Shown here: positions 54,477 through 57,811 of the stretch, piece after piece
How the letters are laid out: every line of letters begins with the position of its first letter
How positions within the stretch are numbered: the stretch's first letter is position 1
Origin: Haloactinospora alba
GTDB taxonomy: Bacteria; Actinomycetota; Actinomycetes; Streptosporangiales; Streptosporangiaceae
Assembly: GCF_006717075.1 (NCBI RefSeq)
Contig: NZ_VFQC01000001.1
Span: forward strand, 2,713,501-2,777,500
DNA: 64,000 nt
Direction: 5' to 3'
Translations under genes and position numbers: made by a program
The notes under the pieces: model-generated
Seen by the model: only the letters and a program-made list of their open reading frames with translations
Told to the model about the DNA's origin: nothing
Databases searched by the model: none

Positions 54477-56114
54477 TCACAGGTGGGGGTAGCCCTGGCG
54501 GAGCAGCCCGTAGGTGATCGCCTGTTCCAGGGCCACCCAGGACGCGTCGATGACGTTCTCGCCCACACCGACGGTGGTCCAGTCGCTGTTTCCGTCGCTG
54601 AACGTCACCAGGATGCGGGTGACGGCGTCCGTGCCGGAGGTCCCCTCCAGGATCCGGACCTTGTAGTCGGTGAGTTCCAGCGCGCCCAGCGCGGTGTAGA
54701 CCCCCTCCATGGCGCTGCGCAGTGCCCGGTCCAGGGCGTTGACGGGTCCGTTTCCCTCCTCGGTGGCGATCACCCGCTCGTCCTTGACGTAGAGCTTCAC
54801 GGTCGCCTCGCTGAGGGGTTCCCCGGCGGATTCCTGGCCGGGTGCCGCCGTGTCCGCGGCCCGCGCGTCAGTCGCCGGTGCGGAGCGGCGCTCGGACAGC
54901 ACCCGCCACGACTCCGCCCGGAAGTAGCGCACCGGGGAGCCGAGTTCCTCACGCAGCAGCAGTTCCAGGGAGGCGTCGGCGGCCTCGAAGCTGTATCCGG
55001 ACTGTTCCAGGGACTTCACGCGCTCGGCGACCCGCCCCAGCAGCGCGCGGTCACAGGACAGGTCGAAGCCGAGCTCGCTGGCTTTCAGCTCGATCGAGGC
55101 CCGCCCGGCCATGTCGGAGACGAGCATGCGCATGTCGTTCCCGACCCGGGAGGGGTCGGTGTGCTGGTAGAGGTCCGGGTCGACCTTGATGGCCGAGGCG
55201 TGCAGCCCGGCCTTGTGCGCGAACGCCGACACGCCCACGTAGGGCTGGTGGGTGGCCGGCGGGATGTTCACGAGCTCCGCGACGGCTTGGGAGACCCGGG
55301 TCATCTCCGCCAGGCACCCCTCGGGCACCACCCTGCGGTCGTACTTCAGCTCCAGGGCTCCCACCACGGAGAAGAGGTTGGCGTTGCCCACGCGTTCCCC
55401 GTAGCCGTTGGCGGTGCACTGCACGTGGGTGGCGCCGGCGTCGACCGCGGCGAGGGTGTTGGCGACGGCGCACCCGCTGTCGTCCTGGGCGTGGATGCCG
55501 AGCCGGGCGCCGGTGTCGTTGCCGACCTCGGTGACGACGCGGGTGATGTCGGCGGGCAGCATCCCGCCGTTGGTGTCGCACAGCACGACCGCGTCCGCTC
55601 CGGCCCCGGCGGCGGTGCGCACCACGCTGCGGGCGTGGTCGGGGTCGTGGTGGTAGCCGTCGAAGAAGTGTTCGCAGTCCAGGAACACGCGTTGTCCGTG
55701 CTCGCGCAGGTAGCGGATCGTGTCGGCGATCATCGCCAGGTTCTCCTCCGGCGTGGTGCGCAGGGCGCGTTCCACGTGGCGGCTGTCGCTCTTGGCGACC
55801 AGGGTCACCACCGGCGCCCCGGAGTCACGCAGGGCGGTGACCTGCGGGTCGTCGGCGGGAGCGACGTCGGAGCGCCGGGTGGCGCCGAAGGCGGTGAGGC
55901 GCGCGTGCGTCAGGGGGAGCTCGTCGGCGGCGCGGCGGAAGAACTCCGTGTCCTTGGGGTTGGATCCGGGCCATCCGCCCTCGATGAAGCCCACCCCGAC
56001 GTCGTCCAGCAGGCGCGCGATGGCCAGCTTGTCTGCGACGGTGAGGTTGATGCCCTCGCGTTGGGCACCGTCGCGCAGTGTCGTGTCGAAGACGTGGAAA
56101 CTGTCGTCTGGCAT
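54477..56114 (-). CDS. cimA: Citramalate synthase
   Basis: A 545-residue homocitrate-synthase-family enzyme: HVFDTTLRDGAQREGINLTVADKLAIARLLDDVGVGFIEGGWPGSNPKD at the N terminus, VLCDTNGGMLPADI, GIHAQDDSGCAVANTLAAVDAGATHVQCTANGYGER, FAHKAGLHASAIKV, and a C-terminal LeuA-type regulatory domain (VKLYVKDERVIATEEGNGPVNALDRALR). It condenses pyruvate and acetyl-CoA to citramalate for isoleucine. ATG 56114 is used; a Ile-codon leader peptide and terminator precede it (56171-56262). Confidence 0.92.
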   Translation of the reverse strand: MPDDSFHVFDTTLRDGAQREGINLTVADKLAIARLLDDVGVGFIEGGWPGSNPKDTEFFRRAADELPLTHARLTAFGATRRSDVAPADDPQVTALRDSGAPVVTLVAKSDSRHVERALRTTPEENLAMIADTIRYLREHGQRVFLDCEHFFDGYHHDPDHARSVVRTAAGAGADAVVLCDTNGGMLPADITRVVTEVGNDTGARLGIHAQDDSGCAVANTLAAVDAGATHVQCTANGYGERVGNANLFSVVGALELKYDRRVVPEGCLAEMTRVSQAVAELVNIPPATHQPYVGVSAFAHKAGLHASAIKVDPDLYQHTDPSRVGNDMRMLVSDMAGRASIELKASELGFDLSCDRALLGRVAERVKSLEQSGYSFEAADASLELLLREELGSPVRYFRAESWRVLSERRSAPATDARAADTAAPGQESAGEPLSEATVKLYVKDERVIATEEGNGPVNALDRALRSAMEGVYTALGALELTDYKVRILEGTSGTDAVTRILVTFSDGNSDWTTVGVGENVIDASWVALEQAITYGLLRQGYPHL

Positions 56115-56170
56115 GGGTGGAACTCCCCGGGTGGATGCGGTTCTCGTCGTGGCCGCCCTGCCGGTCCAAT

Positions 56171-56200
56171 AAAAAAGACCCCTCGTGGACACGAGAGGTC
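56171..56200 (-). terminator. Terminator of the cimA leader
   Basis: Stem GACCTCTCGTG/CACGAGGGGTC (one mismatch) followed by TTTTTT. Confidence 0.85.
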
Positions 56201-56220
56201 GGCGCGCTGGCGGGGTCCGT

Positions 56221-56262
56221 TCAGCCAGCGCGCCTCGTAATAATGATCAGTGGAGACGGCAC
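56221..56262 (-). CDS. Putative cimA leader peptide (MPSPLIIITRRAG)
   Basis: A 13-codon ORF starting at GTG: Met-Pro-Ser-Pro-Leu-Ile-Ile-Ile-Thr-Arg-Arg-Ala-Gly-stop, using ATC-ATT-ATT for the Ile run. It lies ~107 bp before cimA, just ahead of the hairpins. Actinobacterial branched-chain leader peptides commonly have such a short run of the regulated amino acid followed by Arg-Arg. The ribosome site is weak, so the start is not certain. Confidence 0.6.
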   Translation of the reverse strand: MPSPLIIITRRAG

Positions 56263-56365
56263 ATTGTTCAGTGTGCCACACGGAACCGGCTGGCCACTGC
56301 CCTACCCGTGGACTCGTCCGGATGGGCGGGCCGTTTCCCGTGGCCAGCCGGTCGGTGCTGTCGGC

Positions 56366-57811
56366 TCACTGTGCCGCGGTGTCGCTGGTGGCCTGGCGGT
56401 TCCGTTTCCTGCCGAACACCAGCATCCCGGTGAGTACCGCCGCGACCAGGAGGATCGCCATGACGACCAGCATCGGGTACGGCCCGAACTGGACGATCAA
56501 CGGGATGGCGGCCGCGGTGACCAGTCCGCCGCCGAAGAACGGTTCCAGCAGGAGCTGTTTGTAACCGAACGCGGGGTAGGCGGGGGTGCGCAGTTCCGGG
56601 TCGGCGACGCGCATCAGGATCAGGCCGGTCGCGGTGACGCCCATCGACTGGCCGAAGTCGCCGATACCGCGCTCGAACCAGTAGTCCGGGAGCATGCGGG
56701 GGGCGAGCAGCACGAAGGCGCTGATACACCACACCACGCCGAGCACGGTCAGCAGCAGGAACGGGACGATGTTGGCCGCGATGACCTGCAGGGAGAGCGA
56801 CCCCAGGGCGGAGATCACCAGCATGTCCAGGGAGAAGCCCTGGATGCGTTCCACCATCTGCCGGTCGACGATCTCTCGCTTGTCGAACCGGTCGATGAGG
56901 AGCTGGAGGATGATGCCGCCGATCATGGCCAGGGGGAACAGGGGAACGTAGGCGAACAGTTCCAGCTGGTCGGCCCACAGCCAGGACTCCAGGTACTGCA
57001 GCGCCCAGAGGATGAGCTGGCCGATGAGCACGGCGATCGCGAGCACCCCGAAGTGCAGTGCGAGCGGTTCCACGGAGGAGGGGTGCACGGTCAGGGTCGC
57101 GGCGGCGCGCCGGTTCTCCTTCTCCACCAGGCCCATCTGCTCCGAGACCGAGGGGGAGGACCCGGCGCGGAGCTGGGTGCTCTTACCGCTGCGTACGCCC
57201 CAGTTGATCAGGATGATCCCGGCGATGATGCCGGTGAGCAGGCCGATGGTGGCCATGCCGAGGGCGAGGTCCTGGCCTTCGGGGAAGCCCACCTCCTCGA
57301 AGGTGTTCCCCAGGCCGCCGGCCGTGCCGTGGCCGCCCTCGAATCCGATCTCGATGAGCGCGCCGGTCAGTGGGGGCAGGCCGAAGACGGGGCCCAGGAC
57401 GAGGATGGCGAGCAGCAGGCCCAGGACGTACTGTCCGGCGCTGAGCGTGAAACCGAACGCGACCTGGGGGCCGGCGAGCCGTCCCGCTTCCCGTGGTTTG
57501 GGGATGCGTTTGCCCAGGAACATGCCGGCGAAGATGACCGAGATCAACAGGCCGGGAAGCGCACCCCAGACTTCCAGGATGTCCGCGCCGAAGAGGCCGT
57601 TCTCCGCGAGGGGCTCCGCCCAGTCGGCACCGGTCAGGCCCACCAGGCTGCCCAGGATGTCGGGCCCGAGGAGGAGGGCGATGCCGCCGCCGATGATGGA
57701 GCTGGGGAGGAAGAGGCGTTGGGTCAGTTTCCACTTGACTCGCACGAGCTTGGCGATCAGCAATAGTACGCCGAGAAGCAGCAGCGAGAAACCGATGATT
57801 TCAGGGGACAA
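56366..57811 (-). CDS. Sodium/glutamate symporter family protein (GltS-like)
   Basis: A 481-residue polytopic protein with about ten membrane segments. GltS-type motifs are LFLPSSIIGGGIALLLGP, a re-entrant FEGGHGTAGGLGNTFEEVGFPEGQDLALGMATIGLLTGIIAGI, and FGQSMGVTATGLILMRVADPE in the second half, matching the two inverted repeats of the family. It probably imports glutamate or a related acid with Na+. A central cytoplasmic loop (~205-245) is longer than in E. coli GltS. Confidence 0.88.
   Translation of the reverse strand: MSPEIIGFSLLLLGVLLLIAKLVRVKWKLTQRLFLPSSIIGGGIALLLGPDILGSLVGLTGADWAEPLAENGLFGADILEVWGALPGLLISVIFAGMFLGKRIPKPREAGRLAGPQVAFGFTLSAGQYVLGLLLAILVLGPVFGLPPLTGALIEIGFEGGHGTAGGLGNTFEEVGFPEGQDLALGMATIGLLTGIIAGIILINWGVRSGKSTQLRAGSSPSVSEQMGLVEKENRRAAATLTVHPSSVEPLALHFGVLAIAVLIGQLILWALQYLESWLWADQLELFAYVPLFPLAMIGGIILQLLIDRFDKREIVDRQMVERIQGFSLDMLVISALGSLSLQVIAANIVPFLLLTVLGVVWCISAFVLLAPRMLPDYWFERGIGDFGQSMGVTATGLILMRVADPELRTPAYPAFGYKQLLLEPFFGGGLVTAAAIPLIVQFGPYPMLVVMAILLVAAVLTGMLVFGRKRNRQATSDTAAQ

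Follow-up and report, generated by a model that had tools for sequence, protein, structure and literature searches.

Citramalate synthase, encoded by cimA, is the first committed enzyme of isoleucine synthesis by the citramalate route. In the 64,000-nucleotide stretch of the Haloactinospora alba genome analysed here (the window), cimA is preceded by a short open reading frame (ORF) with consecutive isoleucine codons, two hairpins and a run of thymines, which raises the question of whether the supply of isoleucine controls the gene by attenuation. The C-terminal domain of threonine dehydratase (PF00585) has no match in this genome, a result that fits citramalate as a main isoleucine route and is still compatible with a short-form IlvA.

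All leader elements lie on the minus strand (56262-56171), with coordinates, as first placed, read from the sequence. The order on this strand is TGTGGCACACT, 7 nt, and then GTG CCG TCT CCA CTG ATC ATT ATT ACG AGG CGC GCT GGC TGA. The leader ORF (MPSPLIIITRRAG; 56221..56262, stop included) begins with GTG rather than ATG (56262-56260), ends with TGA (56223-56221) and is kept before cimA in relatives. An extended -10-like promoter box (TGGCACACT; 56270..56278) stands 7 nt 5' of its start codon. The three consecutive isoleucine control codons of the ORF, ATC ATT ATT, occupy 56239..56247, and a run of three such codons in a short ORF turns up in 0.04% of dinucleotide shuffles of the leader region. 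Hairpin 1 has 11 bp and overlaps the last codons of the ORF, its 5' arm (GGCGCGCTGGC; 56224..56234) doubling as the RRAG codons and its 3' arm (GCCAGCGCGCC) lying at 56201..56211. Directly abutting it is the intrinsic terminator, a 10-bp stem with a GTCC loop (GACCTCTCGT-GTCC-ACGAGGGGTC; 56177..56200), followed by the T6 U-tract (56171..56176). Both hairpins are read from the sequence, the fold and compensatory changes. Thermodynamic folding of the 131-nt leader RNA gives -66.5 kcal/mol (z = -6.05), a value equalled by 0/200 shuffles. The original prediction of a leader peptide with three consecutive isoleucine codons ahead of cimA, followed by two hairpins and T6, is thus confirmed at these positions, on the minus strand, by sequence and fold. 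An Rfam scan of the window placed only tRNAs above the gathering threshold; no T-box, riboswitch or leader family gave a credible match at the cimA leader, and a known Rfam element was ruled out on that ground.

T6 is separated by 56 nt from the ATG of cimA (54477..56114, minus strand), which encodes a protein of 545 a.a. that matches the NCBIfam equivalog TIGR00977 with 602 bits against a cut-off of 450. The ATG at 56114 was taken as the start since relatives begin at the same site. The likely Shine-Dalgarno sequence of cimA, GGGGAG (56123..56128, minus strand), falls outside the predicted leader structure. On the other side, a gene for a polytopic membrane protein of 481 a.a. (56366-57811, minus strand) ends approximately 100 nt before the leader. 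By eye the protein resembles GltS; Pfam and NCBIfam searches gave no match at E 1e-3. Its gene is placed between cimA and an aldehyde dehydrogenase gene. In a Thermobifida locus (L006), an aminotransferase class IV gene is found upstream of cimA instead of the membrane protein.

If the isoleucine codons matter, they should be kept in front of cimA, and the original prediction had staked itself on their conservation. Upstream regions of cimA were gathered from 210 loci of the class Actinomycetes and searched for a short ORF with at least 2 consecutive isoleucine codons, with dinucleotide shuffles and the reverse strand as controls. Such an ORF is present in 178/210 regions, whereas shuffles contain one in a few per cent of cases. 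By group, the counts are 41/41 for the Nocardiopsidaceae group (1.1 in shuffles), 67/73 for the Streptomycetaceae (1.0), 32/36 for the other members of the same GTDB family (1.3), and 38/60 for the other families of the class (1.5). The reverse strand yielded 2-8 such ORFs per group. The codons are therefore kept before cimA across many families, and the leader arrangement recurs in the Nocardiopsidaceae, in Streptomyces, in Streptosporangiaceae-like genera and in many other families. A chance origin is excluded, above all because the isoleucine ORF is kept upstream of cimA. By eye, the leader peptides include MPSQVIIIVRRAG, MFYGLLIIGRRAG, MLSFAMIIGSRRAGPQ, MTFCLIIP and MNVSIISP, as well as a form with a single isoleucine, MSYRLITH.

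The part of the peptide downstream of the isoleucine codons varies among relatives in both frame and sequence. For instance, Micromonosporaceae-like leaders read ATT ATT CCG TAG, with the stop straight after the isoleucine codons, and nevertheless retain the nucleotides AGGCGCGCCGGC, which are coding in other lineages and non-coding in these; some Streptomyces translate the same nucleotides in a different frame (MLATTMIIGSSAPVRSGH). The last isoleucine codon is 4, 5 or 8 nt from the hairpin 1 arm in 135/159 measured leaders. In Streptomyces, where long multi-branched loops defeat automatic detection of hairpin 1, the leaders were judged from the ORFs and by eye. On this comparative evidence, the conserved features are the RNA structure and isoleucine codons held at a set position ahead of hairpin 1, rather than the end of the peptide.

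Some loci carry cimA without the leader. Members of one family (f17; L160, L162-L165) lack an isoleucine leader, and two of them (L162 and L165) share a different conserved stretch upstream of cimA, with a possible arginine-rich ORF (MVGRWRRTRPRRA...). The leader is also missing from L188, L192, L204, L207 and L209; in the last four, cimA directly follows the apparent end of ilvE (by eye), and control may reside upstream of ilvE.

Both hairpins show strong covariation. In an alignment of 30 diverse cimA leaders (A1), two-sided changes affect 12/20 base pairs, with 69 such cells where shuffles give 19.1 +/- 4.6, and pairing falls from 96% to 39-52% when the partners are slid. The GCGC/GCGC base of hairpin 1 is invariant and its interior varies freely with pairing retained. 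At most a few nucleotides separate hairpin 1 from the terminator in the A1 leaders, and an intrinsic terminator with a T-run is found in nearly all lineages.

An antiterminator was sought by pairing and folding. When the footprint of a stalled ribosome was masked, the terminator was still the predicted fold in every lineage tried, by equilibrium folding that is blind to co-transcriptional folding. A 2:3 mini-hairpin (GCG..CGC) did not outdo shuffles in minimum free energy (mean z about 0). Pairing of the hairpin-1 sequence with the 5' strand of the terminator was also no better than shuffles, and pairing with the 3' strand gave a mild signal in the Nocardiopsidaceae only; this candidate was dropped because the signal was not consistent across lineages. 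Two further pairings were rejected by eye: GGAC of the hairpin-1 loop with GTCC of the terminator loop, present in Nocardiopsidaceae and Streptosporangiaceae and lost in other families, and an extension of hairpin 1 that pairs ACGAG with CTCGT in the window and is not retained in relatives. As predicted, then, the two hairpins are not mutually exclusive, and a conventional 2:3 antiterminator switch is not to be taken for granted. Either the folding tests miss a co-transcriptional structure, or hairpin 1 itself sets the efficiency of termination.

Most of the isoleucine codons in the leaders are the very rare ATT. In a like-for-like set (L001-L080), isoleucine is encoded by ATT in 126/155 leader codons versus 3/1448 codons of the cimA genes, and at least one ATT is present in 173/176 cimA leaders. 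The ilvB and leuS leaders described below (L277-L295) carry rare GTA (Val) and CTT (Leu) codons at the fixed control position (by eye). From these sequences, the use of rare synonyms as control codons seems to be general in the leader family. A second shared feature is the promoter-like box: the pattern TGnYAnnnT lies 6-10 nt, mostly 6-7 nt, before the in-frame start of 143/176 cimA leaders, as opposed to 3/1731 other ATG or GTG codons in the same regions. From this placement, the leader transcript is predicted to be leaderless or almost so, and leaderless translation has been reported for S. lividans leaders (PMC8079986) and a leaderless ilvBNC leader noted in C. glutamicum (PMC11857589). A transcription start downstream of 56171, which would leave the leader untranscribed, is argued against by the box just upstream of the leader ORF.

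The most telling comparison comes from other genes. A covariance model (R1) was built on hairpin 1 and the terminator of 25 cimA leaders, with the isoleucine codons left out. R1 has a match in 200/297 genomes of the class, and the best matches lie just upstream of cimA where they were compared with cimA coordinates, which was done for part of the matches. Among the regions upstream of cimA, it matches 37/40 within the GTDB family and 46/60 from other families, counts that represent coverage rather than independent validation, as the training sequences are among the leaders studied; all 46 matched regions of other families have at least one in-frame isoleucine codon just before hairpin 1 (46/46, by eye). 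R1 also matches before ilvB, where the leaders carry Val/Leu/Ile codons (MRFGILVLH, MTSLLVVLELRAG, MRTRILVLGKRVG), before leuS, where they carry leucine runs (MRGLLLLTGPR, MRAVRLLLSEPR), and before leuA (MTNLLLT or MSQNLLLT), the downstream genes being named from their translations, without HMMs. Matches before ilvB, leuA and leuS are also present in other classes of the phylum. Ile-Ile occurs in 0/25 ilvB, leuS and leuA leaders versus 176/176 cimA leaders, the latter set having been selected on Ile-Ile. The control codons, as read from these leaders, track the downstream gene while the hairpins stay constant.

In the source genome, the cimA leader is the sole strong match to R1 (78 bits). The genome's own ilvB (C1:780564) has a leader, MQSNSLILVPGRRAAS, with a hairpin and a terminator (G000, L213:1336-1442), which is a weak R1 match of 20.9 bits. 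Elsewhere, the hairpin pair occurs with the isoleucine-run leaders MFALVIIM and MFTPRIII at L263 (G318:C37) and L264 (G245:C6), at about 120-330 on the reverse strand, before a gene that is not cimA; its product of approximately 90-100 a.a. is ACT-domain-like by eye, and the one of the two ORFs that was searched had no Pfam match at E 1e-3. The two genomes belong to one Micromonosporaceae-like genus, and the gene is possibly a second one under isoleucine control. In other classes of the phylum, R1 matches at L302 and L310 precede an isocitrate-lyase-like gene (by eye), with candidate leaders that end in GFVGSA and GFVAIA.

Because of the conservation, the covariation, the codon swap, the rare ATT codons and the promoter-like box, attenuation is the best explanation, and the cimA leader is very probably an isoleucine-responsive, ribosome-mediated transcription attenuator. 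At the level of sequence it has a short ORF whose isoleucine codons, specifying the regulating amino acid, are conserved in frame; a predicted, covarying terminator (stem-loop and T6) between this ORF and cimA; and codons that match the product of the downstream gene (Ile for cimA, Val/Leu/Ile for ilvB, Leu for leuS and leuA). It can also be placed with the ilvB and leuS leaders, as one covariance model built from cimA leaders also recovers ilvB, leuS and leuA leaders and as its predicted start is leaderless, near a -10 box (143/176 vs. 3/1731). The isoleucine-dependent attenuation proposed in the original prediction gains support from the codon conservation and from the codon matching before ilvB, leuS and leuA.

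For the cimA leader we infer the following course of translation, stalling, termination and read-through. RNA polymerase would start at or near the leader start codon, and a ribosome would load on the (nearly) leaderless mRNA and translate MPSPLIII. With ample Ile-tRNA, the ribosome would clear the isoleucine codons, reach the stop and depart; hairpin 1 and the abutting terminator would then form, and most transcripts would end at T6 (56176-56171). Under a shortage of charged Ile-tRNA, the ribosome would stall on ATC-ATT-ATT, its footprint or leading edge overlapping the 5' arm of hairpin 1, and this stalling would alter folding around the terminator and lead to polymerase read-through into cimA. 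Among published experiments, changing LVVI to AAAA in the M. tuberculosis ilvB1 leader abolishes induction (PMC13236596), and terminator mutations raise expression of C. glutamicum ilvBNC (PMC11857589). These results support the principle of attenuation by analogy, whereas the S. coelicolor ilvB result stands against it: codon changes there had no effect on regulation, at least in the account of Craster (1999) given in PMC1262725.

How the stall would reach the terminator can be framed in another way. The cimA, ilvB and leuS leaders could be one RNA family without a dedicated antiterminator, in which hairpin 1, abutting the terminator, sets termination efficiency (e.g., as a pause or termination-promoting hairpin) and a stalled ribosome denies its 5' arm; we consider this tentative and rather unlikely. 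A regulated leader that senses something other than Ile-tRNA, with a protein or ligand binding hairpin 1 and the peptide incidental, is very improbable. It would account for the strong conservation of hairpin 1 with its invariant GCGC/GCGC base, for the failure of the pairing and fold tests to find an antiterminator and for the ineffective codon changes in S. coelicolor ilvB, as far as these are reported (PMC1262725), but the codons change with the downstream gene and the hairpins do not, rare ATT is enriched in the leaders, induction is lost when the M. tuberculosis ilvB1 codons are mutated (PMC13236596), and the interior of hairpin 1 varies freely with pairing kept, unlike a ligand pocket. 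Translation-coupled control, in which stalling alters access to the cimA Shine-Dalgarno sequence or mRNA decay and no termination occurs, is scarcely credible: a terminator-free mode of action at the Shine-Dalgarno region has been proposed for the LEU elements that precede leuA in actinobacteria (PMC1262725), but nearly all lineages have the intrinsic terminator with its T-run, and the cimA Shine-Dalgarno sequence lies outside the predicted structure. Least probable of all is that the hairpins are the ordinary 3' terminator of the 481-a.a. gene and the isoleucine ORF an accident, for although that gene shares the leader's strand and ends some 100 nt before the leader, where an intrinsic terminator would be ordinary, the reading is rejected because the element stays with cimA as the neighbor changes (aminotransferase class IV in L006), a promoter-like box lies between the gene and the leader, the isoleucine codons, hairpin 1 and their spacing are all conserved, and the element recurs before ilvB, leuS and leuA with its codons exchanged.

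Attenuation of cimA would have close relatives. In the actinobacterial ilvB (ilvBNC/ilvBHC) attenuators of Corynebacterium, Mycobacterium and Streptomyces, as predicted for the cimA leader, a short leaderless ORF contains codons for branched-chain amino acids, a hairpin follows these control codons immediately, and an intrinsic terminator comes before a biosynthetic gene. The cimA-built R1 recovers ilvB leaders in many genomes, including the S. lividans ilvL peptide MRTRILVLGKRVG (PMC8079986), found in L294. The cimA leader differs in its gene and in its isoleucine-only control codons. In addition, C. glutamicum ilvBNC has an antiterminator overlap at a GCC boundary (PMC11857589), whereas none like it was found in the cimA leader. 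The leuS attenuator of Streptomyces and relatives (leuL2, MRAVRLLLSEPR), whose peptide R1 recovered exactly as published (L295), has the same hairpin pair and fixed codon position, with leucine codons and leuS in place of isoleucine codons and cimA. Proteobacterial attenuators (trp, his, ilvGMEDA, thr) likewise have end-product codons, a stop near hairpin 1 and a terminator before the first gene; in contrast, the cimA leader has a predicted leaderless start and no recognisable 2:3 antiterminator.

Earlier surveys covered this ground. A 2005 survey of Actinobacteria, with Streptomyces and Thermobifida genomes included, described leaders for trp, cys, ilvB, leuA, leuS and trpS, not for cimA (PMC1262725); a 2021 reannotation of S. 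lividans gives eight leaders, cimA not among them (PMC8079986); and a 2024 search of 50 bacterial genomes found an ilvB uORF in Corynebacterium and leaves cimA unmentioned. The author of the original prediction was aware of no cimA attenuator, and a full-text search of open-licence PMC papers (main texts) likewise found no earlier description. As far as these papers show, the cimA leader is an undescribed, widespread addition to the known kind of actinobacterial leader attenuator represented by ilvB, leuS and leuA.

Mutational results disagree within this group, and the codon swap among these sister leaders gives comparative evidence of unusual clarity for attenuation that is specific to the codon. 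The lack of a recognised antiterminator leaves a concrete gap that can be tested. The cimA leader is a practical target for engineering isoleucine-derived products. For the organisms themselves, these sequences suggest that the citramalate route has a control point specific to isoleucine, common to Streptomyces and to a large part of the class Actinomycetes, and the actinobacteria that carry the leader probably turn cimA on when isoleucine is short.
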